Origin: Rhizobiales bacterium SYSU XM002
GTDB taxonomy: Bacteria > Pseudomonadota > Alphaproteobacteria > Rhizobiales > Beijerinckiaceae
DNA: 64,000 nt
Direction: 5' to 3'
Assembly (NCBI GenBank): GCA_009846685.1
Contig: VWVY01000002.1
Coordinates: forward strand, 310,001 to 374,000
Position 1 is the stretch's first letter. Each line of letters starts with the position of its first letter. Shown here in pieces: positions 15,427-34,189 of the stretch. The position numbers and the translations under genes were made by a program. The notes beneath the pieces are model-generated. The model saw nothing but the letters and a program-made list of their open reading frames with translations, was not told the DNA's origin and searched no databases.

Positions 15427-15652
15427 GGTCGTCCTTGCGGGAAAGCCGGCAGCGACGTCAGCCCGCGCCTGCCGGATGTCGATGGAACTGTTCCGGACAA
15501 TGGCTACATGCCGACACCCGAGGCCGCAACTCATTCCGTCAGGAAATTCGTTCCGGAATCGAACCGAAATCACGGTGATCCCGGATATTTTAACAAGTGT
15601 TTAAGGTTACCATGATGGAATGTCTACGAGATGACATTCGGATTCTGTGGGC

Positions 15653-17431
15653 ATGATCGGCAATCTCAAGTTGATTCTGGGCGGCAAGGCTCGTGCAAAG
15701 ACCGTTGCTGAAGAGGCAGCCGGACCGTCGATCGAGCCCACGGGCATTGCCGCGCTTGATGCAGACGCCGCATCATCAACGGAAGAGCTTGCCGAGGCGC
15801 TGGACCTATTCAATCAGGACATCTCGCGCATCGTGAAGAATCTCGACACCGAAATCCTACGCGCGCGCGATCACTCCGTCGAGGCCGGAAAGCATCTTGG
15901 TTCGGTGCAGGAGAGCATGGGTACGCTTGTCAACGCGAGCGAGAAGATCAACGTCGAAATCGCCGGGGTGGCGCAATCGGCCGACGAGCTCAATGCCGCC
16001 GCGGACGAGATCACCAAGACGGTGAAGGGCGTGCAGGATCGCGCCGCCTCGACGCTGGTCTCGGCCGACAGCTCCGCAATCCAGATCGAAGGGCTCGGGC
16101 AGGCCGTGCAGCACATCGGCTCGCTCCTCAACTCGATCAGCGAGATCGCCACGCGCACAAACCTGCTTGCCCTCAACGCGACCATCGAGGCTGCCCGCGC
16201 CGGGGAGGCCGGTCGGGGTTTCGCGGTCGTCGCCGGCGAGGTCAAGGCACTCTCTGTCGCTGCCGCGCAATCGGTTGGCGCCATCCGCGCCCGGATGGAG
16301 GAATTGCAGGCGGCATCGCAGAACGCCATCGCCAACATGCATTCGATCCGTGAGGAAATCGGTGGGCTGACGCCGATCTGCGATCAGATCGCGAATTCCG
16401 CGCAGACGCAGCGCCACGCGATCGGCGATCTCGCCGGCCGGATGCACAATGCGCAAGCCGCAACCCGCGAAGTCAGCGATGCCGTGCGCTCGGTCGAGGA
16501 TGTCACCGCGAGTGCCGCCGCCGTCAGCCGCACCGCAGCCGACCTCTCGGTCAATGCCTCGCATGAAGCGGAAGATCTCGAACGCCGCGTCGTGACGATC
16601 CTGCGGACAATTCCCGCCGCTGACCGCCGCCGCTTCGAGCGCTTCCCCATCGACCTGCCGGTACGTGTCAATGTCGGCGGGCAGATGCTCGCTTGCCGCT
16701 CGTTCGATGTCAGCGAAGGCGGTATCCTGATCAAGCTACCCGAAAAGGCCAAACTGGATTCCGGTTTGACCTACGATTCCGAAATCAGCCGCATCGGCAA
16801 TGTCCGGTTGCGCGTGGTCGGCCATTCGGCTCTCGGTGTGCACTGCGCCTTTATCGATATTTCGAACAGTGCCAAGGAGGCTCTCGGGGCCACGCTCGAA
16901 GCGTTTCGCAAGGAAAACCAGCCGCTGATCGATCGCGCGCAGGCGTTCGCCGGTCAGGTCTCGGAAGCCATCGAGGCCGAATTGCAGGCCGGGCGGCTCA
17001 GCGTCGCAAGCCTGTTCGATACCGATTATCAGCCACTGCCGAACACCGATCCTGTGCAGTTGCGGACCAAATATCTCGACCGTTTCGAGCAGATCCTGCC
17101 GCCGATCTATGAGGCGATGCTTGTCACCGATTCGAATATGGTCTTCTGCCTCGCAGTTGATCGCAACGCCTATATTCCGGTGCATATCCGCAAGTTCAGC
17201 CAGCCGCAGCGGCCGGGCGAACGCGCCTGGAACCATGCCAACGCGCGCAATCGCCGGATTTTCGACGATCGTGCCGGTCTTCTGGCAGCGCGGCTGATGC
17301 GCCCCTTCCTGATCCAGTCCTACAACCGCGACATGGGTAACGGCGTTTTCGTGCCGATGAAGGAAATCGATGCGCCGTTGACCATTGCCGGTCGCCATTG
17401 GGGTGGCGTGCGCATGGCTTACAAGATCTGA
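15653..17431 (+). CDS. Soluble methyl-accepting chemotaxis-type protein with PilZ and C-terminal sensory-like domain
   Basis: Cytoplasmic receptor-like protein of 592 residues without membrane segments. Residues about 45-310 form an MCP signalling coiled coil whose tip reads [20 protein letters not shown], so it should bind CheA and CheW. A PilZ domain follows at about 320-415 with both cyclic-di-GMP motifs intact: RRRFERF, and DVSEGG. The last 130 residues (from about DYQPLPNTDP to WGGVRMAY) form the alpha/beta domain that ends many alphaproteobacterial soluble receptors (FLIQSYNRDMGNGVF, APLTIAGRHWGG). The ATG at 15653 is preferred to an in-frame GTG six bases earlier. It lies 3.4 kb before the che cluster, with unrelated genes between. 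Confidence 0.88.
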   Translation: MIGNLKLILGGKARAKTVAEEAAGPSIEPTGIAALDADAASSTEELAEALDLFNQDISRIVKNLDTEILRARDHSVEAGKHLGSVQESMGTLVNASEKINVEIAGVAQSADELNAAADEITKTVKGVQDRAASTLVSADSSAIQIEGLGQAVQHIGSLLNSISEIATRTNLLALNATIEAARAGEAGRGFAVVAGEVKALSVAAAQSVGAIRARMEELQAASQNAIANMHSIREEIGGLTPICDQIANSAQTQRHAIGDLAGRMHNAQAATREVSDAVRSVEDVTASAAAVSRTAADLSVNASHEAEDLERRVVTILRTIPAADRRRFERFPIDLPVRVNVGGQMLACRSFDVSEGGILIKLPEKAKLDSGLTYDSEISRIGNVRLRVVGHSALGVHCAFIDISNSAKEALGATLEAFRKENQPLIDRAQAFAGQVSEAIEAELQAGRLSVASLFDTDYQPLPNTDPVQLRTKYLDRFEQILPPIYEAMLVTDSNMVFCLAVDRNAYIPVHIRKFSQPQRPGERAWNHANARNRRIFDDRAGLLAARLMRPFLIQSYNRDMGNGVFVPMKEIDAPLTIAGRHWGGVRMAYKI

Positions 17432-20465: not shown

Positions 20466-20540
20466 GGGCGCGTAGCTCAGCGGAAGAGCACTTCGTTCAC
20501 ACCGAAGGGGTCACAGGTTCGATCCCTGTCGCGCCCACCA
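20466..20540 (+). tRNA. tRNA-Val (anticodon CAC)
   Basis: A full cloverleaf was read. The acceptor stem gggcgcg/cgcgccc has 7 bp, the D-arm is gctc...gagc, and the anticodon stem cttcg/cgaag encloses ttcacac, giving anticodon CAC for the valine codon GTG. The T-arm is acagg-ttcgatc-cctgt. Discriminator A is followed by an encoded CCA. Length is 75 bases with CCA. Confidence 0.97.
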
Positions 20541-20877
20541 TTCCTTCCCAATGCTGGATTGCGTTCTTTCCCGGTCCGCTCAGGGCCGCCGGATTCTACT
20601 GCATCGAGCGGCAATTTGTTTCCCGCCGCGTGCCGGCAACGGCCATGCGGATGATGGTTCGGCAGGCTCGGACCGATATCCTCCACGAAGTCGAAGCCGG
20701 TCGGTGGGGCGGGTAGCAGATTACCGCTGCCGGTGATGCGGCCCAGAGGAGACAGGTCAGCCTCCGCTGAACGGCAAATCCCGGAAGCTTGTTAACCAAA
20801 CAACAACCAGAAGTTGTTTATTTTCCAAATATCACCCAGAGCGCGAATCGCGCGCCTCAGGATCGAGGGGCCGCCTG
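20541..20877. other. Gene-free leader region of the chemosensory cluster
   Basis: These 337 bases between tRNA-Val and the first STAS gene show no credible gene. The last 100 bases are AT-rich and hold an inverted repeat at 20798-20819, so the cluster promoter probably lies there. Confidence 0.5.
20798..20819. promoter_or_regulatory. Inverted repeat before the che cluster
   Basis: aaacaac and gttgttt form a 7-bp dyad with an 8-base centre in AT-rich DNA, about 60 bases before the first STAS gene. It may be an operator or promoter-proximal element; no regulator can be named. Confidence 0.35.
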
Positions 20878-21171
20878 ATGACCGAAACATCGCCCGGAAT
20901 GCTGACACTGCCGGCGGAATGTGACTTGCCGTGGGCCCGCGCCTTTCACGAAGGCATTCTGGAGCGCGCGGCGCTGGATAGGGACGTCGAGATCGACGCC
21001 AAGGCCGTCGAGCGCATGACGACACCGGCGGTTCAGGTGATTGTCGCGCTCTCGCGTGCGCTGGAGGCGGAGCGTCGCAGCTTGACCGTCGCATTGCCGT
21101 CTGCGGCGTTCCTGAGTGCGTTCTCCGATCTCGGCCTCGCGGATATGGCCGGAACCTGGAGCGCTACCTGA
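20878..21171 (+). CDS. STAS-domain protein at head of che cluster
   Basis: A 97-residue stand-alone STAS domain. The order of strands and helices is recognisable (LTLPAECDLPWARAFHEGIL, VEIDAKAVERMTTPAVQVIV, RSLTVALPSAAFLSAFSDLGL). Where anti-anti-sigma factors usually carry the phosphorylated Ser (as in DSAG), this one has Met47-Thr48-Thr49-Pro50, so phosphorylation on the usual Ser is not possible, though a Thr could substitute. Its stop is directly abutted by the cheY start, so the two are translated together. Small STAS proteins of this kind occur at the head of some alphaproteobacterial che operons; their role is not established. Confidence 0.82.
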   Translation: MTETSPGMLTLPAECDLPWARAFHEGILERAALDRDVEIDAKAVERMTTPAVQVIVALSRALEAERRSLTVALPSAAFLSAFSDLGLADMAGTWSAT

Positions 21172-21540
21172 ATGGCGAAGACAGTTCTCACCGTGGATGA
21201 TTCCAAAACCATGCGCGACATGGTCGGCTTCACCCTGCGCGGTGCCGGCTTTCAGGTTCTGGAGGCAGAAGATGGCGCCAAAGCGCTTTCACTTCTCGGC
21301 AACGCCCGTGTCGATCTCGTCATCACCGACATCAACATGCCGAACATGGATGGCGTAACGCTCGTCAAGCATCTGCGCGGCATGAACAATTTCCGTTCGA
21401 CCCCGATTTTGATCCTGACGACGGAAGGGGGAGAGGAGAAAAAGGCGGAAGGCCGCGCCGCCGGCGCGACCGGTTGGATCGTCAAGCCTTTCGCGCCCGA
21501 TCGCCTGCTCCAGGTCGTCAACCGCGTCTGCCCGGCCTGA
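21172..21540 (+). CDS. cheY: Chemotaxis response regulator CheY
   Basis: Single receiver domain of 122 residues. The acidic pair is Asp9-Asp10 in TVDDSKTMR and the phospho-acceptor is Asp53 in ITDINMPNMDG. The Thr of ILTTEGG and the Lys of WIVKPF complete the active site. It should receive phosphate from CheA and act at the flagellar motor, or serve as a phosphate sink. It begins immediately after the STAS stop and is followed 11 bases later by cheA. Confidence 0.93.
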   Translation: MAKTVLTVDDSKTMRDMVGFTLRGAGFQVLEAEDGAKALSLLGNARVDLVITDINMPNMDGVTLVKHLRGMNNFRSTPILILTTEGGEEKKAEGRAAGATGWIVKPFAPDRLLQVVNRVCPA

Positions 21541-21551
21541 GGAGCGAGCCC

Positions 21552-23636
21552 ATGTCGACCGGCAACGAATTCGAGCAGTTTCGCAAGACGTTCTTCGAGG
21601 AATGTCAGGAAATTCTCTCCGACCTCGACGGGCTGCTGGCGACGCTTGCGGCCGATCCGTCGGATCGCGAGTGTCTCAATGCCATCTTTCGCGGTGTCCA
21701 TTCGATCAAGGCCGGAGCGGGAGCCTTCAGCTTCACGCGCCTCGTCGGGTTCAGTCACAATCTTGAGGCCGCGCTCGATGGCTTGCGCGACGGGCGGATC
21801 GCCGGCACGGATCAGGTGACGCAACTACTCGTTCGCGCAGTCGATACGTTGGCCGCTTTTGTCGAGGCGGCGCAATGCGGTGCCGAACCACGCGCTGGAT
21901 TTGGCGACGAGCTCTCGCGTGATCTGCTCCGGATGATGGAGACCGGCGGCGAGGAGCGCCCGATAGCTTCGGCTGCGCCGAAGCCGGAGGCTGCCACGGC
22001 TTCCCCGGCCGGTGCACTGTCCCGGTTCCGCATCCGCTTCAAGCCGCATTGGGAAATGTTCCGCCACGCCAACGAGCCGCTGCTGGTGCTGCGTGAACTC
22101 CGGCAGCTCGGAACCTGCATCATCGCCTGCGACATGAGCAGACTGCCGGCCATCAACGCGCTTGATCCGGAGGAGTCCTATCTCTGCTGGCTGATCGAGA
22201 TCGAGACGGTGGCCAGCGCTGCGCGGATCGAGGAAGTCTTCGAATTTGTCGAGGACGATTGTGATCTGATGATCGAGCCAATGGACGGCATCGAGTACCC
22301 GGTTGCATCGCCGGCGGAAGAACCGGCCATTCCTGGGCTGGTTGCCGGTGAACCGGAGGAGGCGGCTGGCGTTGTCCGCGCGAATGGGGGCGAGGAGGGC
22401 GCCGGCAAGGCGCGGGGCAATAATGTCTCCTCGATCCGGGTCGAACTTTCGCGGGTCGACCGCCTCGTCAACATGGTCGGCGAACTGGTCATCACCCAGT
22501 CGATGCTCGCGCAGCAGATCGCCGACCTCGCCCTCGCGCAAGGTTCGCAGGCGGTGCGGGGGCAGGAAGACCTCGCAATGCTGACCCGCGAGTTGCAGGA
22601 GTGCGTGATGGCGATCCGCATGCAGCCGGTGAAATCGGTGTTCGCGCGGATGCCGCGCCTCGTGCGTGAGGTTTCCGCCAAGCTCGGCAAGCCGATCCGC
22701 CTCGTCACCGCAGGCGAGCTGACCGAGGTCGACAAGACCGTGATCGAGGAACTCGCCGATCCGCTTACGCACATGATCCGCAACGCGATCGACCACGGCG
22801 TCGAAAGCCCCGAGATGCGGCGTGCTGCCGGCAAGCCCGAGGAAGGAACAATCGAGCTCACCGCGCTTCATGCCGGTTCGAACATCCTCATCCATGTTGC
22901 GGACGATGGGGGCGGTATCGATCGCGACCGGCTGTTCCGCAAGGCGGTGGAAAAGGGAATCGTCTCAGCGAATGCCAAGCTGAGCGAGGAGGAAATCGAC
23001 GAACTCCTGTTCTCGCCCGGCTTTTCGACCGCCGAGAAAGTAACCGATGTTTCGGGGCGCGGCGTGGGGATGGATGTTGTCCGCCGCAACATCGTGAAGC
23101 TCGGCGGGCGCATTCAGGTGCAATCGGCCCTCGGCAAAGGCACCCGCTTTACCCTTGTCATTCCGCTCACGCTGGCGGTTCTTGACGGAATGATCGTCGC
23201 GGTCGGCACCGAGCGTTACATCCTGCCGCTGACCTCGATCATCGAGAGTTATCGCCCGCATCCACGAACCGTGCGCGTCGTGACCGGCGGAATGCAGGTC
23301 GCGGCCGTGCGTGGCGAATATGTTCGGCTGGTGCATCTGCACGATCTGTTCGGTGTCCAGGATGCTGTGACCGATCCGGCGCAAGGGCTCGTTGTCCTGG
23401 TCGAGACCGCGCAGGGCAACAAGATCGGTGTCGTCGTCGACGAACTGATCGGCCAGCAGCAAGTCGTCATCAAGAGCCTGACCGACAATTTCGATCCCGT
23501 GCGCGGGATTTCGGGCGCGACGATCCTCGGCAACGGGCGCGTCGCGCTCATCCTCGATATCGAGCAGCTTTCGGCGATGTCGCCCCGGACGGGCAGTGAA
23601 CGCCTCGTCCCACTCCCTGTCGACGTGGCCGCCTGA
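21552..23636 (+). CDS. cheA: Chemotaxis histidine kinase CheA
   Basis: Hybrid-free CheA of 694 residues. P1/Hpt has His50 in VHSIKAGAGAFSF. A P2-like region (about 160-250, RIRFKPHWEMFRHANEP onward) precedes an acidic linker. The P3 dimerisation segment is SSIRVELSRVDRLVNMVGELVI. The P4 ATPase shows the N-box HMIRNAIDHGVESP, DDGGGIDRDRL and FSTAEKVTDVSGRGVGMDVV. The P5 CheW-like domain fills the rest (ILPLTSIIESYRP to the end). The ATG at 21552 follows a ggag site; the frame is open upstream only through cheY. It sits between cheY and cheW. Output partners in the same cluster include CheY, CheB and the receiver of the PP2C phosphatase. Confidence 0.96.
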   Translation: MSTGNEFEQFRKTFFEECQEILSDLDGLLATLAADPSDRECLNAIFRGVHSIKAGAGAFSFTRLVGFSHNLEAALDGLRDGRIAGTDQVTQLLVRAVDTLAAFVEAAQCGAEPRAGFGDELSRDLLRMMETGGEERPIASAAPKPEAATASPAGALSRFRIRFKPHWEMFRHANEPLLVLRELRQLGTCIIACDMSRLPAINALDPEESYLCWLIEIETVASAARIEEVFEFVEDDCDLMIEPMDGIEYPVASPAEEPAIPGLVAGEPEEAAGVVRANGGEEGAGKARGNNVSSIRVELSRVDRLVNMVGELVITQSMLAQQIADLALAQGSQAVRGQEDLAMLTRELQECVMAIRMQPVKSVFARMPRLVREVSAKLGKPIRLVTAGELTEVDKTVIEELADPLTHMIRNAIDHGVESPEMRRAAGKPEEGTIELTALHAGSNILIHVADDGGGIDRDRLFRKAVEKGIVSANAKLSEEEIDELLFSPGFSTAEKVTDVSGRGVGMDVVRRNIVKLGGRIQVQSALGKGTRFTLVIPLTLAVLDGMIVAVGTERYILPLTSIIESYRPHPRTVRVVTGGMQVAAVRGEYVRLVHLHDLFGVQDAVTDPAQGLVVLVETAQGNKIGVVVDELIGQQQVVIKSLTDNFDPVRGISGATILGNGRVALILDIEQLSAMSPRTGSERLVPLPVDVAA

Positions 23637-23651
23637 GGCCGGAGGATCAGC

Positions 23652-24170
23652 ATGGCAACCGAGTTTGAAAGCATGACCAGCCAGATCGCCACCTTGCAGA
23701 GCGGCGCTTCCGTGTCCGGCGATGTGAGCCAGTTCATCTCCTTCCGCGTCGGGGAGGAGGAATTTGCAATCGACATCATGGCGGTGCGGGAGATCAAGGG
23801 CTGGACCCAGACGACCACCTTGCCGAACCAGCCCGACTATCTGCTCGGCATTCTCAACCTGCGCGGCACCATCGTGCCGATCTACGATCTGCGCTGCCGC
23901 TTCGGGCTCGGCCTGACGATCGCGACGCGCACGCATGTCGTCATCATCGTCTCCGTACTGGAGCGGACGGTGGGCCTGCTGGTCGACGCCGTATCCGACA
24001 TCCTTACCGTGCGGGGCGACGCCATCCGCCCGATCCCGGACATGGAGCGGCAGGGCTCGACCCAGTTCTTCTCCGGTATCATCACGGTCAACGAAAGCAT
24101 GGTGGTACTGCTCTCGCTCGAAGCCCTGTTCGAGCGCGCCGTCGCCGCACTTCCGGATCTCGCCGCGTAA
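23652..24170 (+). CDS. cheW: Chemotaxis adaptor CheW
   Basis: A 172-residue adaptor linking receptors to CheA. After about 25 extra N-terminal residues the standard fold starts with [23 protein letters not shown]. The receptor-contact region [21 protein letters not shown] and the second barrel [12 protein letters not shown] follow. A ggagga site precedes the ATG. The gene is 15 bases after cheA and 61 bases before the PAS receptor gene. Confidence 0.95.
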
Positions 24171-24231
24171 ACCCCGTCAAACCCTGCACTCCGTCACATT
24201 CGGGCCGAGGCCCCAACCGAAGGAAACGCAC

Positions 24232-26508
24232 ATGTCCTGGCTCAATCTGGGCGCGAAATCGGGTACAAAAAACAACGAGAGGTCGCATTCAATCACTGAC
24301 GAGGTTGCTGCAACCGTGTCGCGCGGCCCCTCGCTTCTGCCAGTTGGTGAGGCGCAGGCGATGGCGGAATTCACGCTTGAGGGCGACTTTATCGCTGTCA
24401 ACGAAGCCTTCTGCGATCTCTTCGGATACGATGCCAGCGAGGTTCGCGGCAAGCATCACGCCTTGCTTGCGGCCGCGCGCGACGGCGAGGACGACCGCCA
24501 GCTCTGGGGCAAGATCACACGCGGCGAGACACAGATGGGCCAATTCCGTATGACCGGGAAGGGCGGTCGCGAGTTCTGGCTTCAGGCCTGCTACGTGCCG
24601 GGAGCGGATGCCAGCGGCAAGATCTCGCGCATCGTCATGGCCGGCATGGACATCACGGAGTTCGCGCGCAAGGCCAAGGACGATGCAATCGAGCTCCGCG
24701 TCCGGTCGGACATCATGAATGAGACCAGCATCGTCTCCTACGCCGATCTCAAAGGCGATATCGTCACGATCAACGAGAAGTTCATCGAGGTTTCCAAGTA
24801 CAGCCGCGACGAATTGATCGGCAGGCCGCACAACACCACGCGCCACCCCGACATGCCCAAGGAAGTCTTCAAGGAGATGTGGGCGACGATCGGCCGTGGC
24901 AAGATGTTCCGCGGTATTATCAAGAACCGCGCGAAGGACGGCACGCCCTATTACGTCGATGCGGTGATCGCCCCCTTCCTCGGCGAAAACGGCAAGCCGA
25001 AGAAGTACCTCGGCGTGCGTTACGACATCACCGAGATCGAAATCGAGCGGCAGAACATGCGCGGCATCCTCGGCGCGATCGATGCCTCCTATGCCTACAT
25101 CGAGTTCGACCTCAACGGAAATGTCCTCAACGCCAACGATAACTTCCTGAAGGCACTTGGGTATTCGCTCGCGGATATCCAGGGCCGTCACCATCGGATG
25201 TTTGTCGAGCCGGCATATGGCAACTCTCCCGAATACGCCCAGTTCTGGCAGGATCTGCGCGGCGGCAGGGCTGTTTCCGATGTTTTCAAGCGCGTGACGC
25301 GCTCGGGTGGCGAAATCTGGATCCAGGCCGTCTATGCGCCGGTGAAGGACGAGACCGGACGTGTGAACAAGGTCGTCAAGATAGCGACGGACGTGACACA
25401 GCAGGTGCAGGCGAGCCGACTGCTGCAGGCTGCCGTCGAGGAGACACAGGCGGTTGTGACGGCGGCCAAGGACAACGATCTCACCCGCCGAATTCCGCTC
25501 GAAGGCAAGTCCGGCGCAATCCAGCACCTTTGCATCGGCGTCAACGGGCTGCTCGACACAATGTCCTCGATCATCGCCAACATGACCGAAACGGCCTCGA
25601 CAATCTCGAACGCCGTGGCGGAAATCACCTCCGGCACCGACGATCTCTCTCGCCGCACGGAGAAACAGGCCTCCAACCTTGAGGAAACTTCGGCTTCGAT
25701 GGAGGAGATCGCCTCCACCATTCGGCTCAATTCGGAGAATGCGCAGCAGGCGAATTCGCTGGCGATCCAGGCGCGTTCGGTCGCCTCGGATGGCGGCGAG
25801 ATCGTCACCCGCGCGGTCGGCGCCATGTCGCGGATCGAGGAATCCTCGACCAAGGTGTCCGATATCATCGGCGTGATCGACGAGATCGCCTTCCAGACGA
25901 ATCTTCTTGCGCTCAACGCAGCGGTCGAGGCGGCACGGGCTGGCGATGCAGGGCGCGGTTTCGCTGTTGTCGCTTCCGAGGTTCGCAGCCTCGCACAACG
26001 CTCAAGCGAAGCGGCGAAAGACATCAAGGCGCTGATTGTCCAGTCCGGGTCGCAGGTCAAGGACGGTGTCAAACTCGTCAACGACGCCGGCACTTCACTC
26101 GCCGATATCGTTACCTCGGTGAAGAAGGTGACGGACATCGTCTCCGAGATCGCTGCGGCGTCGAAGGAACAGGCGGTCGGGGTCGAGGAAATCAACAAGG
26201 CCGTCGGCCAGATGGACGAGATGACGCAGCAGAACTCGGCACTCGTCGAGGAAAGCGCCGCCGCTTGCCGCCTGTTGCAGGACCAAGCGGAGGATATGGC
26301 AAACCGCATGGCCCTGTTCCGCATTTCGGGCGATTTCGCCCATCTCGCTCCGCCACGCGCTGCCGCGCAGAAACCGGTATCGCGCCCGGCCGAACGCGGA
26401 CCGGTCCGCACGCCTGTCAAGGCTGCCGGGGGAGGGCGTGCGGGCGCGGCCGCGCTTCAGGCCAATCTGCGCGAAGCCTACGACGATCCGGAATGGAAGG
26501 AATTCTGA
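24232..26508 (+). CDS. Cytoplasmic chemoreceptor with three PAS domains and a CheR-tether-like C-terminus
   Basis: Soluble methyl-accepting protein of 758 residues with no membrane helix, so it senses an internal signal. Three PAS domains follow each other at roughly 40-150 ([20 protein letters not shown]), 160-280 ([23 protein letters not shown]) and 285-405 ([20 protein letters not shown]). The arrangement is like that of Aer-2/MCP PAS sensors, but no haem or flavin ligand can be assigned by eye. A HAMP-like segment (about 405-470) leads to the MA domain with tip [20 protein letters not shown]. The protein ends in DDPEWKEF, resembling the NWETF-type pentapeptide that tethers CheR in enteric receptors. 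Start: ATG with an aagga site. Confidence 0.92.
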
Positions 26509-26570
26509 TCAAGAAGCCGCGCAGCGCCCGCTGCCCGGCATCCCCGGCCCCTGCTTCGTGAGTTCGGTTC

Positions 26571-27440
26571 ATGTCCACCGCCGTATCGTCTTCTCTCCAG
26601 CGAACCGATCTCGAATCGACCTTCACGGATCGTGACTTCGCCTTCTTCGCCCGGCTCGTTTACGAGAAGAGCGGCATCGTGTTGGCTGATCACAAGAAGA
26701 GCATGATGTTCTCCCGTCTCGTCCGGCGTGTGCGGGAATTGAAGCTCGGGTCGTTCAAGGCCTATGGTGAATTGCTCCGCGGGCCTGACGGCGAAGCCGA
26801 GGTTGGCGATTTCATCAACGCGATGACCACGAACCTCACGAAGTTCTTTCGCGAGGATCATCATTTCGAGTTTCTGGAATCGACCGCCCTGCCGCGCGCG
26901 GCGCAGCGGGCGGTGCAGGACGGCACGCGTCGCATCCGGCTCTGGTCGGCGGGATGCTCTTCGGGTGAGGAGCCCTATTCGATCGCGATCTGCCTCAAGC
27001 GGGCCGCGAGCCAACTGCGACCGCACGACGTCCGGCTGCTGGCGACGGACCTTGACACCAACATGGTCTCCCGTGCCGCGGCGGGACTCTATCCGAAATC
27101 CGCCATCGCCGCGCTGCCGCCCCACTGGCGCAACGGCCATTTCCATTCGACCGACAAGACGCGCGAGCAGGTGGCGGTGGAGGACGACCTCCGCGCGATG
27201 ATCACCTTCCGACCCCTCAATCTCCTGCATGACTGGCCGATGAGCGGACCGTTCGATGCGATCTTCTGCCGCAACGTGATGATCTATTTCGACGGGCCGA
27301 CCAAGGTGCGGCTCGTCAATCGGCTGGCCGACTTGCTTCAGCCCGGCGGCTGGCTCTTCATCGGCCATTCTGAAACACTGCTTGAGCATCAGGACCGCCT
27401 TCGCCTCGTCGGCCGCACGATCTACGAGAGGATCGCGTGA
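26571..27440 (+). CDS. cheR: Chemoreceptor methyltransferase CheR
   Basis: SAM-dependent glutamate methyltransferase for receptor adaptation, 289 residues. The helical N-domain is about 18-80 (FAFFARLVYEKSGIVL). The catalytic domain has TTNLTKFFRE, the SAM loop LWSAGCSSGEEPYSIA, ATDLDTNMV, FRPLNLL and FDAIFCRNVMIYFD. The tail GHSETL is typical. It follows the PAS receptor by 62 bases and its stop overlaps the cheD start. Together with CheB and CheD it gives a full adaptation set. Confidence 0.96.
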   Translation: MSTAVSSSLQRTDLESTFTDRDFAFFARLVYEKSGIVLADHKKSMMFSRLVRRVRELKLGSFKAYGELLRGPDGEAEVGDFINAMTTNLTKFFREDHHFEFLESTALPRAAQRAVQDGTRRIRLWSAGCSSGEEPYSIAICLKRAASQLRPHDVRLLATDLDTNMVSRAAAGLYPKSAIAALPPHWRNGHFHSTDKTREQVAVEDDLRAMITFRPLNLLHDWPMSGPFDAIFCRNVMIYFDGPTKVRLVNRLADLLQPGGWLFIGHSETLLEHQDRLRLVGRTIYERIA

Positions 27441-28033
27441 TGGCGCCCCTTGCAATCCGAAACCCGGAAGCAGCCGGTGGGGCAGGGCGGATCGTCCGCG
27501 TTCTCCCCGGCGAGTTCCACGTCACGGGTGATCCCGCCACTACCGTCGTCACCGTGCTCGGCTCCTGCGTTTCGGCTTGCATCCGCAATCCGTTCAACGG
27601 GTTCGGCGGGCTCAACCATTTCATGCTGCCGGAAAGCGAGAGCGAGGAGTGGAACGGCGTCAGTGCCGCCAATCGCTATGGCAATTTCGCCATGGAGGCG
27701 CTCATCAACGCGGTGCTGAAGTCCGGCTGCACGAGGCTCGACCTCGAGGTGAAACTGTTTGGCGGCGCCAGCATGCACAACCCGGTTTCGAATATCGGCG
27801 GCAAGAACGCGGCCTTCGCCCGGCATTACCTCGACGTGGAGCGCATTCCGCTCGCCTCATCCGATCTTGGTGGCGATTACGGCCGCCGCATCCACTATTC
27901 GCCGGCGACGGGGAAGGTGCAGCGACTCCTCCTCAAGGACAAGGAAGACCGTCAGGTCATCACCGAGGAAGCCCGCTATGGCTCCTCTCTCAGGAAGGTG
28001 CAGTTCGATGGCGACATTGACCTCTTCGATTAA
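27440..28033 (+). CDS. cheD: Chemoreceptor glutamine deamidase CheD
   Basis: Deamidates receptor glutamines to methylatable glutamates. 197 residues. The catalytic Cys is in TVLGSCVSACI and the His in GGLNHFMLP; KLFGGASMHNPVSNIGGKNAAFA is the family signature. The ATG at 27440 overlaps the cheR stop (TGATG); a GTG three bases earlier is also in frame. Its C-terminal coding sequence overlaps the start of cheB by 26 bases, so cheR, cheD and cheB are translationally linked. Confidence 0.94.
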   Translation: MAPLAIRNPEAAGGAGRIVRVLPGEFHVTGDPATTVVTVLGSCVSACIRNPFNGFGGLNHFMLPESESEEWNGVSAANRYGNFAMEALINAVLKSGCTRLDLEVKLFGGASMHNPVSNIGGKNAAFARHYLDVERIPLASSDLGGDYGRRIHYSPATGKVQRLLLKDKEDRQVITEEARYGSSLRKVQFDGDIDLFD

Positions 28034-29075
28034 GCCCCGCACCCCGATCCGTGTGCTCGTGGTCGATGATTCAGCACTGATGCGGCAGATGCTCTCGACG
28101 ATGCTGGCCACGGATCCGGATGTCGAGGTGGTCGGCACGGCTTCCGATCCGTTGATCGCCCGCCAGAAGATCAAGCAACTCGACCCAGATGTCGTCACCC
28201 TCGATATCGAGATGCCGAACATGCACGGGCTCGAATTCCTGCGGCGGCTGATGGCCCTGCGTCCGACGCGGGTGTTGATGATTTCGTCGCTCACCCAGAA
28301 GAACACCGAATTCACGCTGGAGGCGCTGGCAACCGGTGCGATCGACTGCCTCGGCAAGCCGCGCGATGCGACCAGCGAGGGGGAGATGGCTGTCTTCCGC
28401 GAGAACCTTCTGCAAAAGCTGCACGCCGTTGCCTCGGCGCGATTGCGCCCGACGCCTGCAACAGGGACCGATGCCGTCCTGCGTGTGATCCCGGGACGCA
28501 GCCGATACCAGTTCATCGCTATCGGCGCCTCTACCGGCGGTGTCGAGGCGCTTTCGCGGGTCTTTGCCGAACTGCCCGCCGGATTGCCACCGATGGCCAT
28601 CGTGCAGCACATGCCGGGTAGCTTCACGACCAGCTTCGCGAGGCGTCTCGCAAACCTCTCGCAGGTGGAGGTGGTCGAGGCGAAGGACGGGATGCCAATC
28701 CGTTCCGGTCAGGCGGCTCTGGGGCCGGGGGGCCATCAGTTCGAGATCGTCCGGCGCGACGGCGAATTCCGATGCCGGATCTTCGACGCCCCGGTGCCGC
28801 TGGGGCACGCACCATCGGTGGATATCCTGATGGAGTCCGTTGCCCGCGAGGTCGGCGATCGCTCGATCGGCATCCTCCTCACGGGTATGGGGCGGGATGG
28901 TGCGCTCGGCATGAGCGCGATGCGGGCCGCGGGTGCCGTTACGTTCGGGCAGGACGAGGCCTCGAGCCTCGTCTACGGCATGCCGCGCGTGGCCTTCGAG
29001 GCGGGCGGGGTCGAACAGCAATTGCCGCTCGCGCGCATCGCAGCGGAGATCGTTGCCGTCGTCGAGACCCGATAG
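28008..29075 (+). CDS. cheB: Chemotaxis protein-glutamate methylesterase CheB
   Basis: Response regulator methylesterase of 355 residues. Receiver at about 14-125 (RVLVVDDSALMRQML; phospho-acceptor in VVTLDIEMPNMHGL; Lys in LGKPRD). A linker is followed by the esterase domain (from about 165) with the Ser in GASTGGVEAL, the His in IVQHMPGSF and the Asp in GMGRDGALGM. The ATG at 28008 lies within the cheD end and has an aggaagg site; the open frame upstream is just the cheD shadow. It closes the adaptation genes; an AT-rich gap of 95 bases before the next gene may hold an internal promoter. Confidence 0.95.
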   Translation: MATLTSSIKPRTPIRVLVVDDSALMRQMLSTMLATDPDVEVVGTASDPLIARQKIKQLDPDVVTLDIEMPNMHGLEFLRRLMALRPTRVLMISSLTQKNTEFTLEALATGAIDCLGKPRDATSEGEMAVFRENLLQKLHAVASARLRPTPATGTDAVLRVIPGRSRYQFIAIGASTGGVEALSRVFAELPAGLPPMAIVQHMPGSFTTSFARRLANLSQVEVVEAKDGMPIRSGQAALGPGGHQFEIVRRDGEFRCRIFDAPVPLGHAPSVDILMESVAREVGDRSIGILLTGMGRDGALGMSAMRAAGAVTFGQDEASSLVYGMPRVAFEAGGVEQQLPLARIAAEIVAVVETR

Positions 29076-29170
29076 GGGACGACACACGGCAAGCGTGCAA
29101 TTCGTGACAACACAACTATTAGTTAAATATCAATCGGTAATCTACCAAGGATTGCAGAATTCCAACCGAG

Positions 29171-30214
29171 GTGCCTGTGACGATTCCGGCCACATCTTCC
29201 GAACGCGAACATCCGGTTGTGGGAACAGTTCCACCCGGTTTGCAGCCGGACGACTCGGTCGCGACGATGCGCCGTCTGACGCTCGAAGCTGTCAGCCAGG
29301 TCCTGCAGGGCGTTTCCGATCTCATCGAGACCAATTCCACCGGTGTCTCCGCCCGATTCGGCAAGATCGCGGGCGACGCCGCGATGCAGACGGCCGGTAT
29401 CCGCGACCTGATCGACAGGACCTCCACCATTGAGGTCGATGGCGAGCGGGTCGCGCTCACGAGCCTCGCCTCGGAACTTCAGGGCGCGCTGGCTGAGCTC
29501 GTGAGAAAGATCATCTTTCTCTCCTCGCGCGGTATGGCGATGGTCTACGCGCTGGAGGACGTTCTCGACGAGGTGCAGCAGGTCCGAAAAAGTGTGGCAA
29601 ACATCGAGAAACTCAACAGTCAGACCAATCTCCTCGCGCTCAATGCGAAGATCGAAGCGGTTCATGCGGGTGACGCAGGGCGGGGCTTCGCGGTCGTGGC
29701 CAACGAGGTGCGGCAGCTCGCGCAGCGCACCAACGAGATTTCCGGAGACCTTCATCAGCGCATCACGCGCGTGACGGCGGGGCTCGACAACAGCTTCAGC
29801 CTTCTCAAGGAGATTTCGACCATCGACATGTCCGAAGAGAATGTCTTCGCGAACGAGCGGATCAACATGATCGTCGACAGTCTCGTCAAACAGCACGCGA
29901 TGTTTTCCGAGGCGCTGGAACTGGCCTCGGTGAATACAGGTCAGCTCACCAACGAAATCCGGGACGCGGTCGTCAAGATGCAGTTCCAGGACCGGGCGAC
30001 ACAGGAAATCCAGAGTATCCGGCAGGTGATGGGCATTCTTGCTCAATCGCTTTCAACGCCGGCAGGCGGGCGGAGTATTGACGCCGAGATCGACCGGACC
30101 CTCACCCTCGGCGACGTCAAGGCGCGGATACTCGCAAAGGTCCACGGCCTCCCGCCGCCCGCCGAGTCGCTCCGCGCCGATGCAAGCGATGCGGGCGAAA
30201 TCGACCTGTTCTGA
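29171..30214 (+). CDS. Short soluble methyl-accepting chemotaxis-type protein
   Basis: A 347-residue receptor-like protein without membrane helices or a sensor domain. An N-terminal helical region (about 30-130) precedes the signalling tip [35 protein letters not shown] (about 150-184). Near the C-terminus KMQFQDRATQEI is the motif often found after the coiled coil in soluble receptors of this kind, and the end is acidic (DAGEIDLF). It starts with GTG at 29171; another in-frame GTG lies six bases later. It sits between cheB and the second STAS gene, 11 bases before the latter, and may connect the array to the partner-switch genes. Confidence 0.85.
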   Translation: MPVTIPATSSEREHPVVGTVPPGLQPDDSVATMRRLTLEAVSQVLQGVSDLIETNSTGVSARFGKIAGDAAMQTAGIRDLIDRTSTIEVDGERVALTSLASELQGALAELVRKIIFLSSRGMAMVYALEDVLDEVQQVRKSVANIEKLNSQTNLLALNAKIEAVHAGDAGRGFAVVANEVRQLAQRTNEISGDLHQRITRVTAGLDNSFSLLKEISTIDMSEENVFANERINMIVDSLVKQHAMFSEALELASVNTGQLTNEIRDAVVKMQFQDRATQEIQSIRQVMGILAQSLSTPAGGRSIDAEIDRTLTLGDVKARILAKVHGLPPPAESLRADASDAGEIDLF

Positions 30215-30225
30215 AGGAGTGCGCG

Positions 30226-30528
30226 ATGCGAGCGGAACTGACGAAGACAAACCAGGAAATGAAGGTCAAGCTACAGGAGCGCCTCTCCTTCTCCGATCAC
30301 ACCAAGTTCCGGGAATTACTGACCTCGATCGATCGGGAAAAGCCGACGCACTGTGTCTTCGATATGTCGGAGCTGATTTCGATCGATTCGGCGGGTCTCG
30401 GAATGCTGATGATCGCCCACCAGCAGTCGGAGAAGTCGGGCTGGAAACTTTCGCTGCAAGCGCCGAAAGGGCATGTGAAGCAACTTCTCGAACTCTCCCG
30501 CTTCGACAAGATCATTCCGATCACATGA
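30226..30528 (+). CDS. STAS-domain anti-sigma factor antagonist (RsbV/SpoIIAA-like)
   Basis: A 100-residue stand-alone STAS domain with the classical phosphorylation site: MSELISIDSAGLGML, where Ser55 follows Asp54. In RsbV/SpoIIAA this Ser is phosphorylated by the GHKL kinase and dephosphorylated by a PP2C phosphatase. Both such proteins are encoded directly downstream. A ggag site precedes the ATG. The stop overlaps the next start in ATGATG, so translation is coupled. Unlike the first STAS protein of the cluster, this one keeps the phosphosite. Confidence 0.9.
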   Translation: MRAELTKTNQEMKVKLQERLSFSDHTKFRELLTSIDREKPTHCVFDMSELISIDSAGLGMLMIAHQQSEKSGWKLSLQAPKGHVKQLLELSRFDKIIPIT

Positions 30529-31760
30529 TGAACCTCGCCAACAGGCATCTCGCGCCGCACCTGCAGGGCATCGGCGATGTAGCCGATCCGACGCTCGCCG
30601 TGGATTTTTCCGGCTCCCGCATTCTTGTCGTCGACGACAGCGTCACGATCCGGAAAACGATCACGACCTACCTCCGTAACCGAGGCTTCGCCAACGTGAT
30701 GGAGGCAGCCAACGGTCGGATCGCGCTTGAGATCATCGAACAGATCGAACCCGATCTCATCATTGCCGACATCGCCATGCCGGAGATGGACGGTCTCGCC
30801 CTTTGCAGGGTCCTCAAGTGCAGCGATCGTTACGCGCAGATCCCGGTGCTGATCCAGACCGGCACGGAATCGGCCGACCGGCGGGCGGAGGCTTTCTCGC
30901 ACGGCGCGCAGGATCTCATCACGAAGCCGATCAACCTGCGCGAGATGCTGGGCCGCGTTCAGGTTCATCTCGAACAGCGCCATCTCGTCCGGCGTCTGTC
31001 GGACTACCAGCAGTCTATGGCGCAGCAGCTCGAGATGGCGCGCGAGATGCAGGAGTTGTTGCTGCCGAGCGGCGACGATATCCGGGCGTTCGAGGCCGTT
31101 TTCCCGGTGTTGATCGCATCGTCCTACAAGGCGTCCTCTGGCCTTGGCGGCGATCTCTGGGGCTGTCAGGCCACGGACGATGGCGCTCTCCGTTTCTTCA
31201 TGGCGGATTTTACCGGTCACGGTGTGCTGGCGGCGCTCAATACCTTCCGTTTTCACTCGTTCCTGCGCAATGAGCCGCTCGATTCGTTGCCAGAGGCGGA
31301 TGCGATGGCCTGCCTCAACAGCTTCCTCAAGGATGTGCTGCCGGTCGGCCAGTTCGCGACCTTCCTGAGTTGCCGGATCAACTTCCGGGAAGGCTGGATC
31401 GAGATCTGTTCAGCGAGCGGTCCGCCACCCATGCTGCGGAGCGGGAGCGATGGCGAGTTCGAGCCGCTCGCCTCCGACGGCCTGCCGCTCGGCATCCTCA
31501 TCGAGAGTGATTATTGCGCCCGCCGCTATCCGTTTCCGCCCGGCAGCATGCTGATCCTCTACAGTGACGCGCTGATCGAGACGCCGCTTCCGCCGGATGC
31601 CGTCTTCACCACGGACAGCCTATGCCGCCATCTCAACCGGCTGGCTCCGGATGCCAGCAGCCACAGTATCATGCGCGATCTCCTCGCCAGCCTGATGCCG
31701 AACCTTCCTGAAGATGACCTGACGGTGCTCGTCATCAAGCACAAGGAGCAACCGGAATGA
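30525..31760 (+). CDS. Response regulator with PP2C-type (RsbU/SpoIIE) phosphatase domain
   Basis: A 411-residue two-domain output protein. The receiver (about 30-150) has Asp37-Asp38, phospho-acceptor Asp82 in IADIAMPEMDG and Lys134 in ITKPIN. A helical linker with AREMQELLLP joins the SpoIIE/RsbU phosphatase domain (about 180-410). Metal ligands are visible: Asp210 in GLGGDLW, Asp228 in MADFTGHG, and the C-terminal DDLTVLVI. CheA phosphorylation of the receiver would switch the phosphatase, whose likely substrate is the upstream STAS protein. This matches the architecture of HsbR and RsbU-like regulators elsewhere. The start overlaps the STAS stop; the stop overlaps the next gene by four bases. 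Confidence 0.93.
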   Translation: MMNLANRHLAPHLQGIGDVADPTLAVDFSGSRILVVDDSVTIRKTITTYLRNRGFANVMEAANGRIALEIIEQIEPDLIIADIAMPEMDGLALCRVLKCSDRYAQIPVLIQTGTESADRRAEAFSHGAQDLITKPINLREMLGRVQVHLEQRHLVRRLSDYQQSMAQQLEMAREMQELLLPSGDDIRAFEAVFPVLIASSYKASSGLGGDLWGCQATDDGALRFFMADFTGHGVLAALNTFRFHSFLRNEPLDSLPEADAMACLNSFLKDVLPVGQFATFLSCRINFREGWIEICSASGPPPMLRSGSDGEFEPLASDGLPLGILIESDYCARRYPFPPGSMLILYSDALIETPLPPDAVFTTDSLCRHLNRLAPDASSHSIMRDLLASLMPNLPEDDLTVLVIKHKEQPE

Positions 31761-32386
31761 TCGAGAACGCCTCCGGCGTGATCCATGCGCCGTCTTTGTG
31801 CGGCGTGAATTTTGGCAAGCAGCAATCCGTCAAGCAAGCGGTTCCCTGCAGGGAGCGGCTGCAGGCGATCCGCCGTTACGTGGCGATCAACAAGCCGGCA
31901 ATCGGCCAATTGGTGCAGGGTGTCTTCGATATCCGCACGCTTGAGGAGGCGGAGCGCCTCTCCTCCATGCTGGCGATGCAATGCCCCGAGCCGGAGACCG
32001 CCGCGATCGGCATCTGGGAACTCCTCTCGAACGCCATCGAACACGGCTCGCTCCAGATCGACGGCGAGACCAAGGCCCGCCTGGTTCTCGACGGGACCTT
32101 TCTTGACGAGATCGCGCGGCGGCAGGAAATGGAACCCTATCGCGGGCGTGTCGTGCGGGTCATGTTCCGCAAGCAAGCCCGGTCGATCCGCATCCGGGTG
32201 ATGGATGAGGGGCCGGGGTTTGATTTTGCGGCGCTTGCCCGCGATATCCAGCCGACCGACGCACCATGCGGGCGCGGCCTCGCGCTTGCCCGCGGTATTG
32301 CGTTCAGTTCCATCGTCTTTCTCGGTCGGGGCAATGTAGTCGACGCCCGGATACAGGTGAAGCTGGCGGCGGCCCCGGCCGGTTAA
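31757..32386 (+). CDS. GHKL ATPase, RsbW-like anti-sigma/serine kinase
   Basis: A 209-residue protein with an HATPase domain of the anti-sigma kinase type. N-box is IWELLSNAIEHG (Asn92, Glu88), G1 is MDEGPGFD (about 149-156), and the last ATP-lid glycines are CGRGLALARG. There is no H-box, so it is not a sensor kinase. In the Rsb system this protein holds a sigma factor and phosphorylates the STAS antagonist. About 70 extra N-terminal residues may bind the target. It is the last gene of the cluster (ATGA overlap with the phosphatase). No sigma factor gene follows: the next gene is a convergent receptor whose stop shares bases with this one. Confidence 0.85.
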   Translation: MIENASGVIHAPSLCGVNFGKQQSVKQAVPCRERLQAIRRYVAINKPAIGQLVQGVFDIRTLEEAERLSSMLAMQCPEPETAAIGIWELLSNAIEHGSLQIDGETKARLVLDGTFLDEIARRQEMEPYRGRVVRVMFRKQARSIRIRVMDEGPGFDFAALARDIQPTDAPCGRGLALARGIAFSSIVFLGRGNVVDARIQVKLAAAPAG

Positions 32387-34077
32387 GCGGCGCGGATCGA
32401 ACCGAGGAACTCGTTGACTGCGCCAGCAAGCGCCTGCCCTTCACGACCGAGATCGCGGGAGGAGCCGAGAACCTCCTCGACGAGCCGTCCGGAGTTCTGG
32501 ATCGCGAGACTGACGTTGGAGATACTCTTCGTCACCTCGACCGTTCCCTTGGCCGCCTCGTCGATATTGTCGGCGATCATTCCCGTGGTCGTCATCTGGT
32601 CGGAAATCGAGACCCCGATCACTTCCGAAATCTGGTTCACTTCACCGATTGTGCCGGCAATGGAGCGGATCGCCTCGATCGCGTTGGTACTCGCGGCCTG
32701 GATAGCGGTGATTTGGCCGGCAATTTCCTCGGTTGCGCGTGCGGTCTGGGCGGCGAGTTCCTTCACTTCCTGCGCCACGACCGCGAAACCGCGCCCGGCT
32801 TCACCGGCGCGCGCGGCCTCGATGGTGGCGTTGAGCGCAAGAAGGTTGGTCTGGCCAGCGATATCGCTGATGACCTTGGCGACCGTGCCGATCGAGTCGG
32901 CGGCCGCACCGAGGGACTGAACATCCTGGTCGGTCCGGCGGGCTTGCTCGGCGACCTGGCGGATGCGCTCGCCGCTGTCAGCGACCTGCGAGCCCACCTT
33001 GTTCATGGCATCGGAGAGTTCGGCAGTCGCCGCCGCGACGGTACGGACGTTTTCCGTCGCTTCCTCGGAGGCAGCCGCGACGGCGGTGGCCTGCCCCGTC
33101 GCGGAACCGGATTCGCGCGACATTTCCTCGGCGGTCCGTTCCAGAATGCTCACGGCTTCCGTGACCGATTGCACGACGCGACCGACGCGCTGCTCAAAAG
33201 CCTGTGCCAGTTCGGCGAGCCCCGCCTTGCGACGATCCTCAGCAGCGGTGCGATCCTGCTCTTGCGCGATCCGCAAGGCCTCCGTCTCGCGCAGGTTCTG
33301 CTGGAAGACCTGAACCGTCTCGGACATGCGCCCGACTTCGTCGCGCCGCTTGCTGGGCGGAACTTCCGCATCGAGCTTGCCGAGGCTGAGCAGCGACATC
33401 ACGTCGCTCAATCGCGAAATCGGCCGGATGATCCGGCGGAAAATGACGAGCCCGGTCCCGAAGAGCGCCAGGACGATAACGGTGCCGAGGCCGACAATCT
33501 TGATGAGTGCCTCCATCGCGGTGGCTTCCATCCGCTGCGTCACGAACTGGATCCGGTCGCGCATCACGCCGAGCATGCCACTGGCGGATTCCGAAAGCGC
33601 CTGCATGGATTCATTCTGGCGCGTGGCAAGCGCAAGGCGCGCTTCCGGCTCCGCGGCGCCGGCGGCTCCGGCAAGGCTGTCATCGAGCGCCTTCCGCGCC
33701 CGCGCAAGCGCGCCGTCCGTCCCGGCGATCGCGGTCCTGACATTCTCGGGAAAGCCTACCGACATGCCGACGAGGGTTTTCCAGTCCGGATCCACCTTGG
33801 TATTCCGCGCCGCGATACTGGTCCGCGCAGCCTCCGCCTTTGCCGGAGTGATCAGGGCATCCGTCACCTCGACATGGTTGCGCCACTGCGCCTCGATGAG
33901 CGCATGGACGTAGTTCGGCGGCACGGAAGCCTCCCACACCGCGTCGCGCGTGTTGTCGAGCAGGCGCATCGTCATCGTCAGGGCCAGCCAGCCCGCGACC
34001 GCGCAGAGGGTCAACAACACGCCGAACGCGAGGAGCATGTCGGCGAGGAAGGAATGTTGCTTTGAAAAAAGGCGCAT
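32383..34077 (-). CDS. Membrane methyl-accepting chemotaxis protein
   Basis: Typical transmembrane receptor, about 564 residues. First membrane helix about 12-36, periplasmic helical-bundle sensor about 37-192, second helix about 195-215 (IVGLGTVIVLALFGTGLVIF), HAMP about 216-270 (RPISRLSDVMSLLSLGKLDAEVP), then the signalling coiled coil with tip [22 protein letters not shown]. The start chosen (34077) puts the helix at the N-terminus; an in-frame ATG at 34119 adds 14 residues and neither has a clear ribosome site. No CheR-tether motif is seen at the end (FLGSIRAA). It converges on the che cluster and its stop overlaps the GHKL gene by four bases. Ligand unknown. Confidence 0.9.
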   Translation of the reverse strand: MRLFSKQHSFLADMLLAFGVLLTLCAVAGWLALTMTMRLLDNTRDAVWEASVPPNYVHALIEAQWRNHVEVTDALITPAKAEAARTSIAARNTKVDPDWKTLVGMSVGFPENVRTAIAGTDGALARARKALDDSLAGAAGAAEPEARLALATRQNESMQALSESASGMLGVMRDRIQFVTQRMEATAMEALIKIVGLGTVIVLALFGTGLVIFRRIIRPISRLSDVMSLLSLGKLDAEVPPSKRRDEVGRMSETVQVFQQNLRETEALRIAQEQDRTAAEDRRKAGLAELAQAFEQRVGRVVQSVTEAVSILERTAEEMSRESGSATGQATAVAAASEEATENVRTVAAATAELSDAMNKVGSQVADSGERIRQVAEQARRTDQDVQSLGAAADSIGTVAKVISDIAGQTNLLALNATIEAARAGEAGRGFAVVAQEVKELAAQTARATEEIAGQITAIQAASTNAIEAIRSIAGTIGEVNQISEVIGVSISDQMTTTGMIADNIDEAAKGTVEVTKSISNVSLAIQNSGRLVEEVLGSSRDLGREGQALAGAVNEFLGSIRAA

Positions 34078-34189
34078 GGCGAGGCCCGAAGTCGAGGAAA
34101 ATCGGGCGATTTCTCGCATATTCGCGTTAAGTGGCCGTTAACCACGCTAGATTGCGGGGATTGTCTATGCCCGCGTTGGTTGCAAATGA

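Follow-up and report, generated by a model that had tools for sequence, protein, structure and literature searches.

Stage 1 F7 chemosensory clusters, as laid out by Ortega et al. (2020), run in the order STAS-cheY-cheA-cheW-Aer2-cheR-cheD-cheB-McpA-STAS-serine phosphatase, with a function that is unclear (PMC7184735; this and the other published sources are cited here from excerpts). The ancestral F7 system, which is the source of the Escherichia coli chemotaxis core, is described there as having a ‘still-unknown biological function’, and a review of chemosensory systems in Vibrio cholerae likewise speaks, in its excerpt, of a role that is poorly understood (PMC7534058). The locus considered here, from Rhizobiales bacterium SYSU XM002, is a twelve-gene chemosensory operon found entirely on the (+) strand at positions 20878-32386 of the window, where ‘window’ means the whole 64,000-nucleotide stretch that was analysed (contig VWVY01000002.1, positions 310,001 to 374,000). 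This operon has the stage 1 gene order, a known arrangement, and it has as well an Aer2-like receptor with a tether and an McpA-like receptor with a conserved C-terminus, but there is one cheW rather than the published two, along with a separate GHKL gene which the excerpted description does not name (PMC7184735). Because of that one cheW in place of two, the cluster is termed here F7-like rather than stage 1 proper.

What we consider probable, from comparison of sequences, is that this is an F7-like accessory chemosensory operon in which CheA would possess a second output, that is, via a receiver-bearing PP2C phosphatase (REC-PP2C) that sets a STAS protein (STAS2) against a GHKL kinase. Such parts are also those of partner switches. 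RsbU/V/W of Bacillus, for example, consist of a PP2C phosphatase, a STAS protein, and a GHKL kinase. To our knowledge, the operons encoding HsbR/HsbA and SiaABCD of Pseudomonas, and BgrU/V/W/R of Sinorhizobium meliloti, are without a che core. In HsbR/HsbA/HsbD, SiaABCD, and BgrU/V/W/R, a STAS protein whose state is set by phosphatase and kinase controls a diguanylate cyclase (PMC7647112). STAS, phosphatase, and kinase are common to those operons and the present one, whereas in the window no cyclase gene was recognised. Relative to RsbU/V/W, the window’s phosphatase differs in bearing a receiver, the kinase of the window’s relatives differs in bearing a receiver-like region, and no SigB-type factor was found among the genome’s Sigma70_r2 matches.

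The Putative Switch Genes

Each of the twelve genes is identified by Pfam, and the gene set, order, and single strand that an earlier note on this DNA had listed are confirmed by open reading frames (ORFs) together with those matches. The last three genes are those of the putative switch. STAS2 (30226-30528), which is RsbV-like, matches Pfam STAS at 5e-14, and its predicted phosphosite, as placed by alignment, is Ser55 of IDSAG (30388-30390). That serine, belonging to the IDSAGLG phosphosite to which the earlier note had pointed, is kept in 18 of 18 aligned rows. REC-PP2C (30525-31760) combines Response_reg (2.3e-27) with SpoIIE (2.1e-36), and at E<=0.001 nothing else in the 3.46-Mb genome matches the SpoIIE family. 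Its receiver residues (D37, D38, D82, and K134) and PP2C metal residues (D210, D228, D348, D397, and D398) are complete, as had been claimed, and invariant in 13 aligned proteins, with Asp82 (30768-30770) being by alignment the predicted phosphoacceptor. The GHKL protein (31757-32386; 209 amino acids, aa; HATPase_c_2, 1.1e-8) is a predicted kinase in which, in keeping with the earlier description, no H-box domain was found, while its ATPase residues, i.e., N-box E88/N92, D150-x-G152-x-G154, and G172-R173-G174, are invariant in 10 aligned proteins. RsbU/V/W-type parts are thus present as a PP2C with metal residues, a STAS with a Ser/Thr site, and a GHKL protein without an H-box. The three genes also overlap, again as first described, by 4 bases each: The ATG of REC-PP2C is at 30525 and the STAS2 stop at 30526-30528, and the ATG of GHKL is at 31757 and the REC-PP2C stop at 31758-31760.

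REC-PP2C matches over its full length, at 1e-57, PDB 3eq2, which we take to be Pseudomonas RssB, a protein whose gene neighbourhood presumably differs from that seen here. The NCBIfam model NF045505 (Pseudomonas RssB) matches at 2e-28, with 99.5 bits versus a cut-off of 700. For the GHKL domain, the best solved match is PDB 9qih_A, ‘SenB’ (3.2e-17), the length of which, 304 aa, is similar to that of receiver-GHKL relatives of the window’s protein. That is, 7 of the 10 aligned GHKL proteins, those outside of the window’s genus, carry an N-terminal region of ~130 residues that resembles a degenerate receiver, and which is missing from the window’s protein and from two genus relatives. Pfam Response_reg matches 2 of these 10 proteins at E<=1 (best, 0.01), and positions 1-140 of the GHKL profile match PDB receivers, PleD among them, at 1.8e-4 to 2e-3 and weaker. 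A structure model of the GHKL protein, folded without alignment, had a pLDDT (predicted local distance difference test) of 36.7, too weak to be used.

Pairing of phosphatase with kinase takes more than one form. Among 17 clusters with REC-PP2C, a kinase gene is adjacent or fused to it in 16, in three layouts: The GHKL gene is 3’ of REC-PP2C in 12 (on the opposite strand in G211 and G257, with G numbers here designating genomes and L numbers fetched stretches), STAS2 and REC-PP2C are separated by a different GHKL gene in G243, G144, and G051, and in G010 an HATPase-like part is fused to the REC-PP2C N-terminus (3.5e-4, under the Pfam cut-off). For G133, no kinase gene was found beside REC-PP2C in the ORFs read. 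The F7-type cluster of Vibrio sp. THAF191d (L227), to whose cheA that of the window is 40% identical, has the same gene order and a STAS with DSAG, but has two cheW, and its STAS is followed by a 564-aa REC-PP2C-GHKL fusion in which the kinase is C-terminal. This pairing in differing layouts, in 16 of 17 clusters and in Vibrio as well, argues for function rather than drift. At L213:12098-17084, the gene for a GHKL-REC-PP2C fusion precedes one for a short PAS protein, which by eye is LOV-like.

Association with the che Genes

The switch-bearing cluster is not unique to the window. A synteny comparison among related genomes, as the earlier note had suggested, shows che genes adjoining REC-PP2C relatives, in the window’s order, for 13 of the 20 stretches fetched, more than chance would give, and further stretches beyond those 20 have this order too. 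Among the 13, L126 and L134 end at contig ends, STAS1 (the operon’s first gene) went undetected in L128, L130, and L135, and L136 and L137 are without a PAS receptor between cheW and cheR. Of 17 genus genomes, 3 combine an F7-type cheA (68-100% identity) with REC-PP2C while 14 have neither, two of the latter being only 78 and 83% complete. REC-PP2C (E<=1e-30) was found in none of the other 44 family or order relatives, several of which have a cheA that is 44-51% identical to the window’s.

Across a class sample of 289 genomes, REC-PP2C is matched at E<=1e-30 in 42, and CheA of the window at E<=1e-110 in 35. Eighteen genomes lie above a cheA limit of 590 bits, a limit which was set after seeing the gap between 598 and 540 bits, and REC-PP2C is present in 16 of those 18 versus 26 of the 271 others. 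It is adjacent to cheA in 12 of the 18 (G257 judged across a contig break), is elsewhere in the genome in G127, G035, G043, and G110 (in the last, 30 kb away), and is without a match in G082 and G115. Trees point in the same direction. For 17 clusters, the tree of CheA+CheB+CheR and that of REC-PP2C, many branches of which are weakly supported, have 7 of 14 splits in common, versus no more than 3 (mean, 0.26) in 2000 permutations of the labels. A tree of 43 REC-PP2C proteins was set aside. The 13 rows labelled as F7 in it need 4 label changes, versus a shuffled mean of 11.3 and 0 of 500 shuffles being as low, but the labelling was incomplete, since F7-like clusters were afterwards recognised in L151 and L152 too.

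The che core and the switch are thus mostly co-inherited. With the three genes found in a che operon, mostly co-inherited with it, and with active sites that are intact, a second CheA output is the natural reading, and as many relatives carry the same set, the operon may show what this old, poorly understood array type controls. A phosphatase, STAS, and kinase that travel with an F7-type system would represent, that is, a concrete, assayable output.

REC-PP2C relatives nevertheless occur in non-che settings too. In Vibrio sp. THAF190c (L158, 14992-18163), for example, REC-PP2C, STAS, a sugar-nucleotide-transferase-like gene, and a GHKL-like gene are found together, though this was rejected as an F7 cluster, its neighbourhood being different and by eye an exopolysaccharide-like operon. 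Rejected as F7-like was also the CheA of Leisingera (L229), which belongs to another che layout. A scan of named genomes, one that leaves out the window’s near kin and keeps pattern matches only, found a REC-PP2C relative encoded in 468 of 489 stretches, with a top identity of 27% in the best segment; the operon’s cluster was seen in none of the 13 loci re-examined from the best 80, an absence that means little. In a phylum sample, an alignment threshold of E<=1e-80 gave 10 of 398 genomes, which is too strict for judging distribution outside of the class.

An alternative perspective is that these genes are mere neighbours, i.e., that REC-PP2C is driven by some other kinase or by an HPt (histidine phosphotransfer) protein, with the module only sharing an operon with che. 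Several observations weigh in this manner against a CheA-driven switch. The operons of G243 and G144 add an HPt-like protein, a possible phosphodonor in place of CheA, whose gene overlaps the end of REC-PP2C (L136:12455-12814, Pfam Hpt 2.2e-5; L137:3059-3421, by eye). G640 and G700 possess STAS/REC-PP2C/GHKL modules for which the 20 kb fetched revealed no che genes. Five of 22 F7-like clusters examined are without an adjacent REC-PP2C, and since the 17 switch clusters were recruited mostly via REC-PP2C, not as an unbiased F7-like sample, 17 of 22 is itself biased; the cheA-based search gives instead the 12 of 18 adjacent. Within the window’s operon, a promoter of its own could precede the short receptor, within a 95-base gap of ~45% GC; no sigma-70-type promoter site was found in 20600-32600. 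Opposing the idea of mere neighbours are the co-gain or co-loss seen in the genus, the congruence of trees, and the 4-base overlaps, and we judge it to be unlikely.

Proposed Mechanism and Targets

With a second CheA output as the preferred reading, signaling might proceed as follows. An array of the PAS (Aer2-like) receptor would control CheA, which would feed CheY and CheB and, we infer, the receiver of REC-PP2C. Phosphorylation of that receiver would turn the PP2C either on or off, the PP2C would dephosphorylate STAS2 at Ser55, and the GHKL protein would both re-phosphorylate STAS2 and bind its unphosphorylated form. The state of STAS2 would then be a slow, graded output beside the fast output of CheY, thereby linking fast array signaling to slow Ser/Thr switching. 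The target of STAS2, probably not a factor of the SigB type, would lie outside of the operon. The McpA-like receptor, in turn, may drain phosphate from CheY or REC-PP2C via a CheZ-like motif, with the tail that it has in common with CheD presumably acting as a docking motif.

The earlier note had envisaged a sigma/anti-sigma end point, or else some other STAS-bound target. In the former case, the GHKL protein would be an anti-sigma factor which is freed from its sigma factor once STAS2 is dephosphorylated. The RsbU/V/W-like parts, with residues intact, are consistent with such a switch, as too is the match of STAS2 to TIGR00377 (anti-sigma antagonist), at 50.9 bits just under the cut-off of 53.45. 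This end point was not borne out, however. The genome’s four Sigma70_r2 matches are one of 692 aa (RpoD by size only), two that are sigma-32/RpoH-type, and one that is ECF-like, with no SigB/F/G-type factor found among them and both of the RpoH-type being under the SigB/F/G cut-off, while EcfG-type factors, which could escape PF04542, were not searched for. Nor was a sigma gene recognised by eye in the flanks inspected. A sigma-factor partner switch is in our estimation quite unlikely.

From a different perspective, STAS2 or the GHKL protein might control an enzyme such as a diguanylate cyclase, in the manner of SiaABCD, HsbR/HsbA/HsbD, and BgrU/V/W/R, a target which is at least as likely as a sigma factor. 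In favour of this are the precedent of partner-switch systems that control diguanylate cyclases (PMC7647112) and the lack of a SigB-type factor among the genome’s Sigma70_r2 matches. Inspection of neighbourhoods by eye revealed no cyclase gene, however (none was searched for genome-wide), and the sole hint of cyclic di-GMP (c-di-GMP) is the PilZ domain of a methyl-accepting chemotaxis protein (MCP) encoded at 15647-17428. We view a non-sigma partner switch as a real possibility, if one with somewhat less than an even chance of being correct.

The che Core and STAS1

The operon begins with STAS1 (20878-21171; 97 aa; STAS_2, 2.7e-11), which is followed by cheY (21172-21540; Response_reg, 1.8e-28), by cheA (21552-23636), in which Pfam recognises Hpt, H-kinase_dim, HATPase_c, and CheW domains but no receiver, and by the single cheW (23652-24170). 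After the PAS receptor (24232-26508) come cheR (26571-27440), cheD (27437-28033), and cheB (28008-29075), with cheW, cheR, cheD, and cheB each identified by its own Pfam family. Start codons were set in this analysis for cheA (21552), the PAS receptor (24232), cheB (28008), and REC-PP2C (30525), that of cheB lying inside cheD such that these two genes overlap by 26 bases.

The PAS receptor has three PAS stretches plus MCPsignal. Its best NCBIfam match is the model aer2_vibrio (1.8e-100), at 337 bits far under the cut-off of 1200. The highest 19-residue hydropathy is 1.24, i.e., there is no hydrophobic segment, and the array probably is cytoplasmic. Its C-terminus, EWKEF (26491-26505), fits the CheR-tether pentapeptide x-[HFYW]-x-x-[HFYW] (PMC7184735).

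STAS1 compares better with CheS than it does with RsbV. CheS is a single-domain STAS protein that binds CheA (PMC12654446), and the likeness, which is one of place (here, 5’ of cheY) and size only, is that both are small, STAS-only proteins of che clusters. That some STAS-only proteins sit in chemotaxis operons is mentioned in passing in an excerpted review (PMC8256260). This likeness allows for another alternative, which is that the switch acts back on the array, with the GHKL protein and PP2C setting the phosphorylation of both STAS1 and STAS2, and with STAS1, as a CheS-like protein, tuning CheA. STAS1 indeed is in the CheS position, CheS binds CheA, and of 9 aligned STAS1 rows, 8 have Thr at the phosphosite position and the other has Ala. 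STAS1 is missing the D-S-x-G signature that STAS2 has, however, and feedback of this kind strikes us as improbable.

The Short Receptor and Its CheZ-like Motif

The short receptor (29171-30214) corresponds to the McpA-like receptor that the published cluster encodes. That identity is new here, as are the CheZ-like motif and the C-terminal tail in common with CheD that are described below; titles and abstract openings of the open papers found by search gave no pointer to either motif or tail, which is weak evidence of novelty. This receptor consists of MCPsignal only, with an MCP hairpin, and no sensor domain or hydrophobic segment was found: Its highest 19-residue hydropathy mean is 1.27, versus 2.08 for the McpA-like receptor of Vibrio and 2.48 for a HAMP-type MCP. 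It is unlike the Vibrio sp. THAF191d receptor, which has a hydrophobic N-terminus, and unlike McpA of Pseudomonas aeruginosa and V. cholerae, which have a transmembrane region (PMC7184735). The conserved C-terminus of McpA, which is without the CheR tether that Aer2 possesses, is described in the same excerpt as important yet unclear. Twenty-four positions are invariant in 14 short-receptor sequences, with the C-terminal part holding Q271, Q273, D274, Q278, L346, and F347. A structure model, folded without alignment, was again too weak to be used (pLDDT 53.0).

The CheZ motif is A-x-x-F-Q and then D-x-x-x-Q (PMC7750401), and in full it fits E. coli CheZ along with both CheZ-family proteins of the genome. 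McpA-like proteins match from the F onward, the window’s protein being without the Ala, and in the window this FQDxxxQ is FQDRATQ (29984-30004; residues 272-278). McpA-like proteins of 21 of 22 clusters have [FV]QDxxxQ, with VQDxxxQ in two, while that of the remaining cluster (G043) has FQDxxxD. In the L213 receptor, a duplicated form of 696 aa, the motif is in the first half only, and in Vibrio QFTDIIVQ stands in place of QFQDRATQ, such that D and Q are kept but the preceding Q is lost. The motif is not present in the genome’s other 13 MCPs. Among 44 MCP frames, as identified by hairpin pattern in fetched regions, 20 have [FVIY]QDxxxQ, including one unrelated-looking MCP in L211, and all 16 with a terminal W-x-x-F tether lack it. 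From the motif’s D to the C-terminus is 73 residues in the window’s receptor versus 71 in E. coli CheZ, and 72-119 in single-hairpin McpA-like proteins of other clusters. A DXXXQ is carried as well by CheT (PMC12654446).

CheZ and the short receptor thus have FQDxxxQ in common, but that of the short receptor is embedded in an MCP hairpin. CheZ homology was considered and rejected: Pfam CheZ gave no match, and the strong matches of a PDB profile search were MCPs, with no CheZ among them. As no CheZ homology was detected, it is a motif that is claimed here rather than homology. The motif is kept in 4 of the 5 clusters without an adjacent REC-PP2C, and its substrate, if the motif is active, is therefore more likely CheY than REC-PP2C. 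An McpA-like receptor with FQDRAKQ and a GIDLF end is found also on plasmid pMOC3 of Methylobacterium oryzae (L228, 13780-16023), where its neighbours include a response regulator gene and a STAS gene but, over the 16 kb displayed, no annotated cheA.

A Tail Common to the McpA-like Receptor and CheD

The short receptor ends, by sequence comparison, in GEIDLF (30194-30211), and CheD ends similarly, in GDIDLFD (28010-28030). McpA-like receptors end in [IV][DE][LM]F in 22 of 22 clusters, and CheD in [IVA][DE]LF, plus at most one residue, in 20 of 22, including the window’s; the CheD of G051 and G116 have a similar ELF at 8 and 5 residues, respectively, before the end. The Vibrio cluster has the same type of tail, i.e., EVELF for its McpA-like receptor and DDVELF for its CheD. 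Just 2 of 409 stop-to-stop frames (at least 80 residues) in the window end in the tail motif, these being CheD and the short receptor. In a different che layout, one CheD has AVTLF as its end, and a looser form of the tail may be more widely distributed.

A tail common to these two proteins suggests, as the simple inference, a docking partner that also is common to them, and in its sequence the tail looks like a docking motif. A role as a CheZ-like, CheY-binding end was considered too, but is weakened by CheD’s possession of the same tail, and because of CheD the tail is now read as one for docking generally. Together, FQDxxxQ and the tail would provide the McpA-like receptor with a testable job. 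More tentatively still, and as an idea that we would consider doubtful in its entirety, the original output of the F7 array may have been a Ser/Thr partner switch, in which CheA drives a receiver-bearing phosphatase and is opposed by a kinase that in relatives is itself receiver-linked, the two enzymes acting on a single STAS protein, and with the McpA-like protein serving not as a sensor but instead as an array-bound, CheZ-type phosphatase which drains response regulators, and which is recruited like CheD by an [IV][DE]LF docking tail.

Host Genome and Flanking Genes

The genome holds 14 MCP matches, two CheA matches, a FliM, and, elsewhere, two CheZ-family proteins. Near to the second CheA (C9) are cheW, a receiver, cheB, and cheR, and this CheA is, as judged by identity and length, of the type found in the genus’s other 14 genomes. 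With the second CheA being of the genus-wide type, flagellar control probably rests on that system, with the window’s cluster accessory to it.

Seven flanking genes were tested, and none was found beside the genus’s other two clusters, except for weak receptor-to-receptor matches. Horizontal gain was considered as an explanation and set aside, the cluster’s composition not being deviant (62.6% GC versus 63.3 and 64.3% for the flanks). The cluster starts 337 bases after a tRNA-Val (CAC) gene (20466-20540, +). Upstream as well, the PilZ domain of the MCP at 15647-17428 (+) is C-terminal, making this a possible c-di-GMP-responsive receptor near the cluster. At the other end, a HAMP-type MCP (32383-34119, -) is convergent with the operon, with its end overlapping the GHKL stop.

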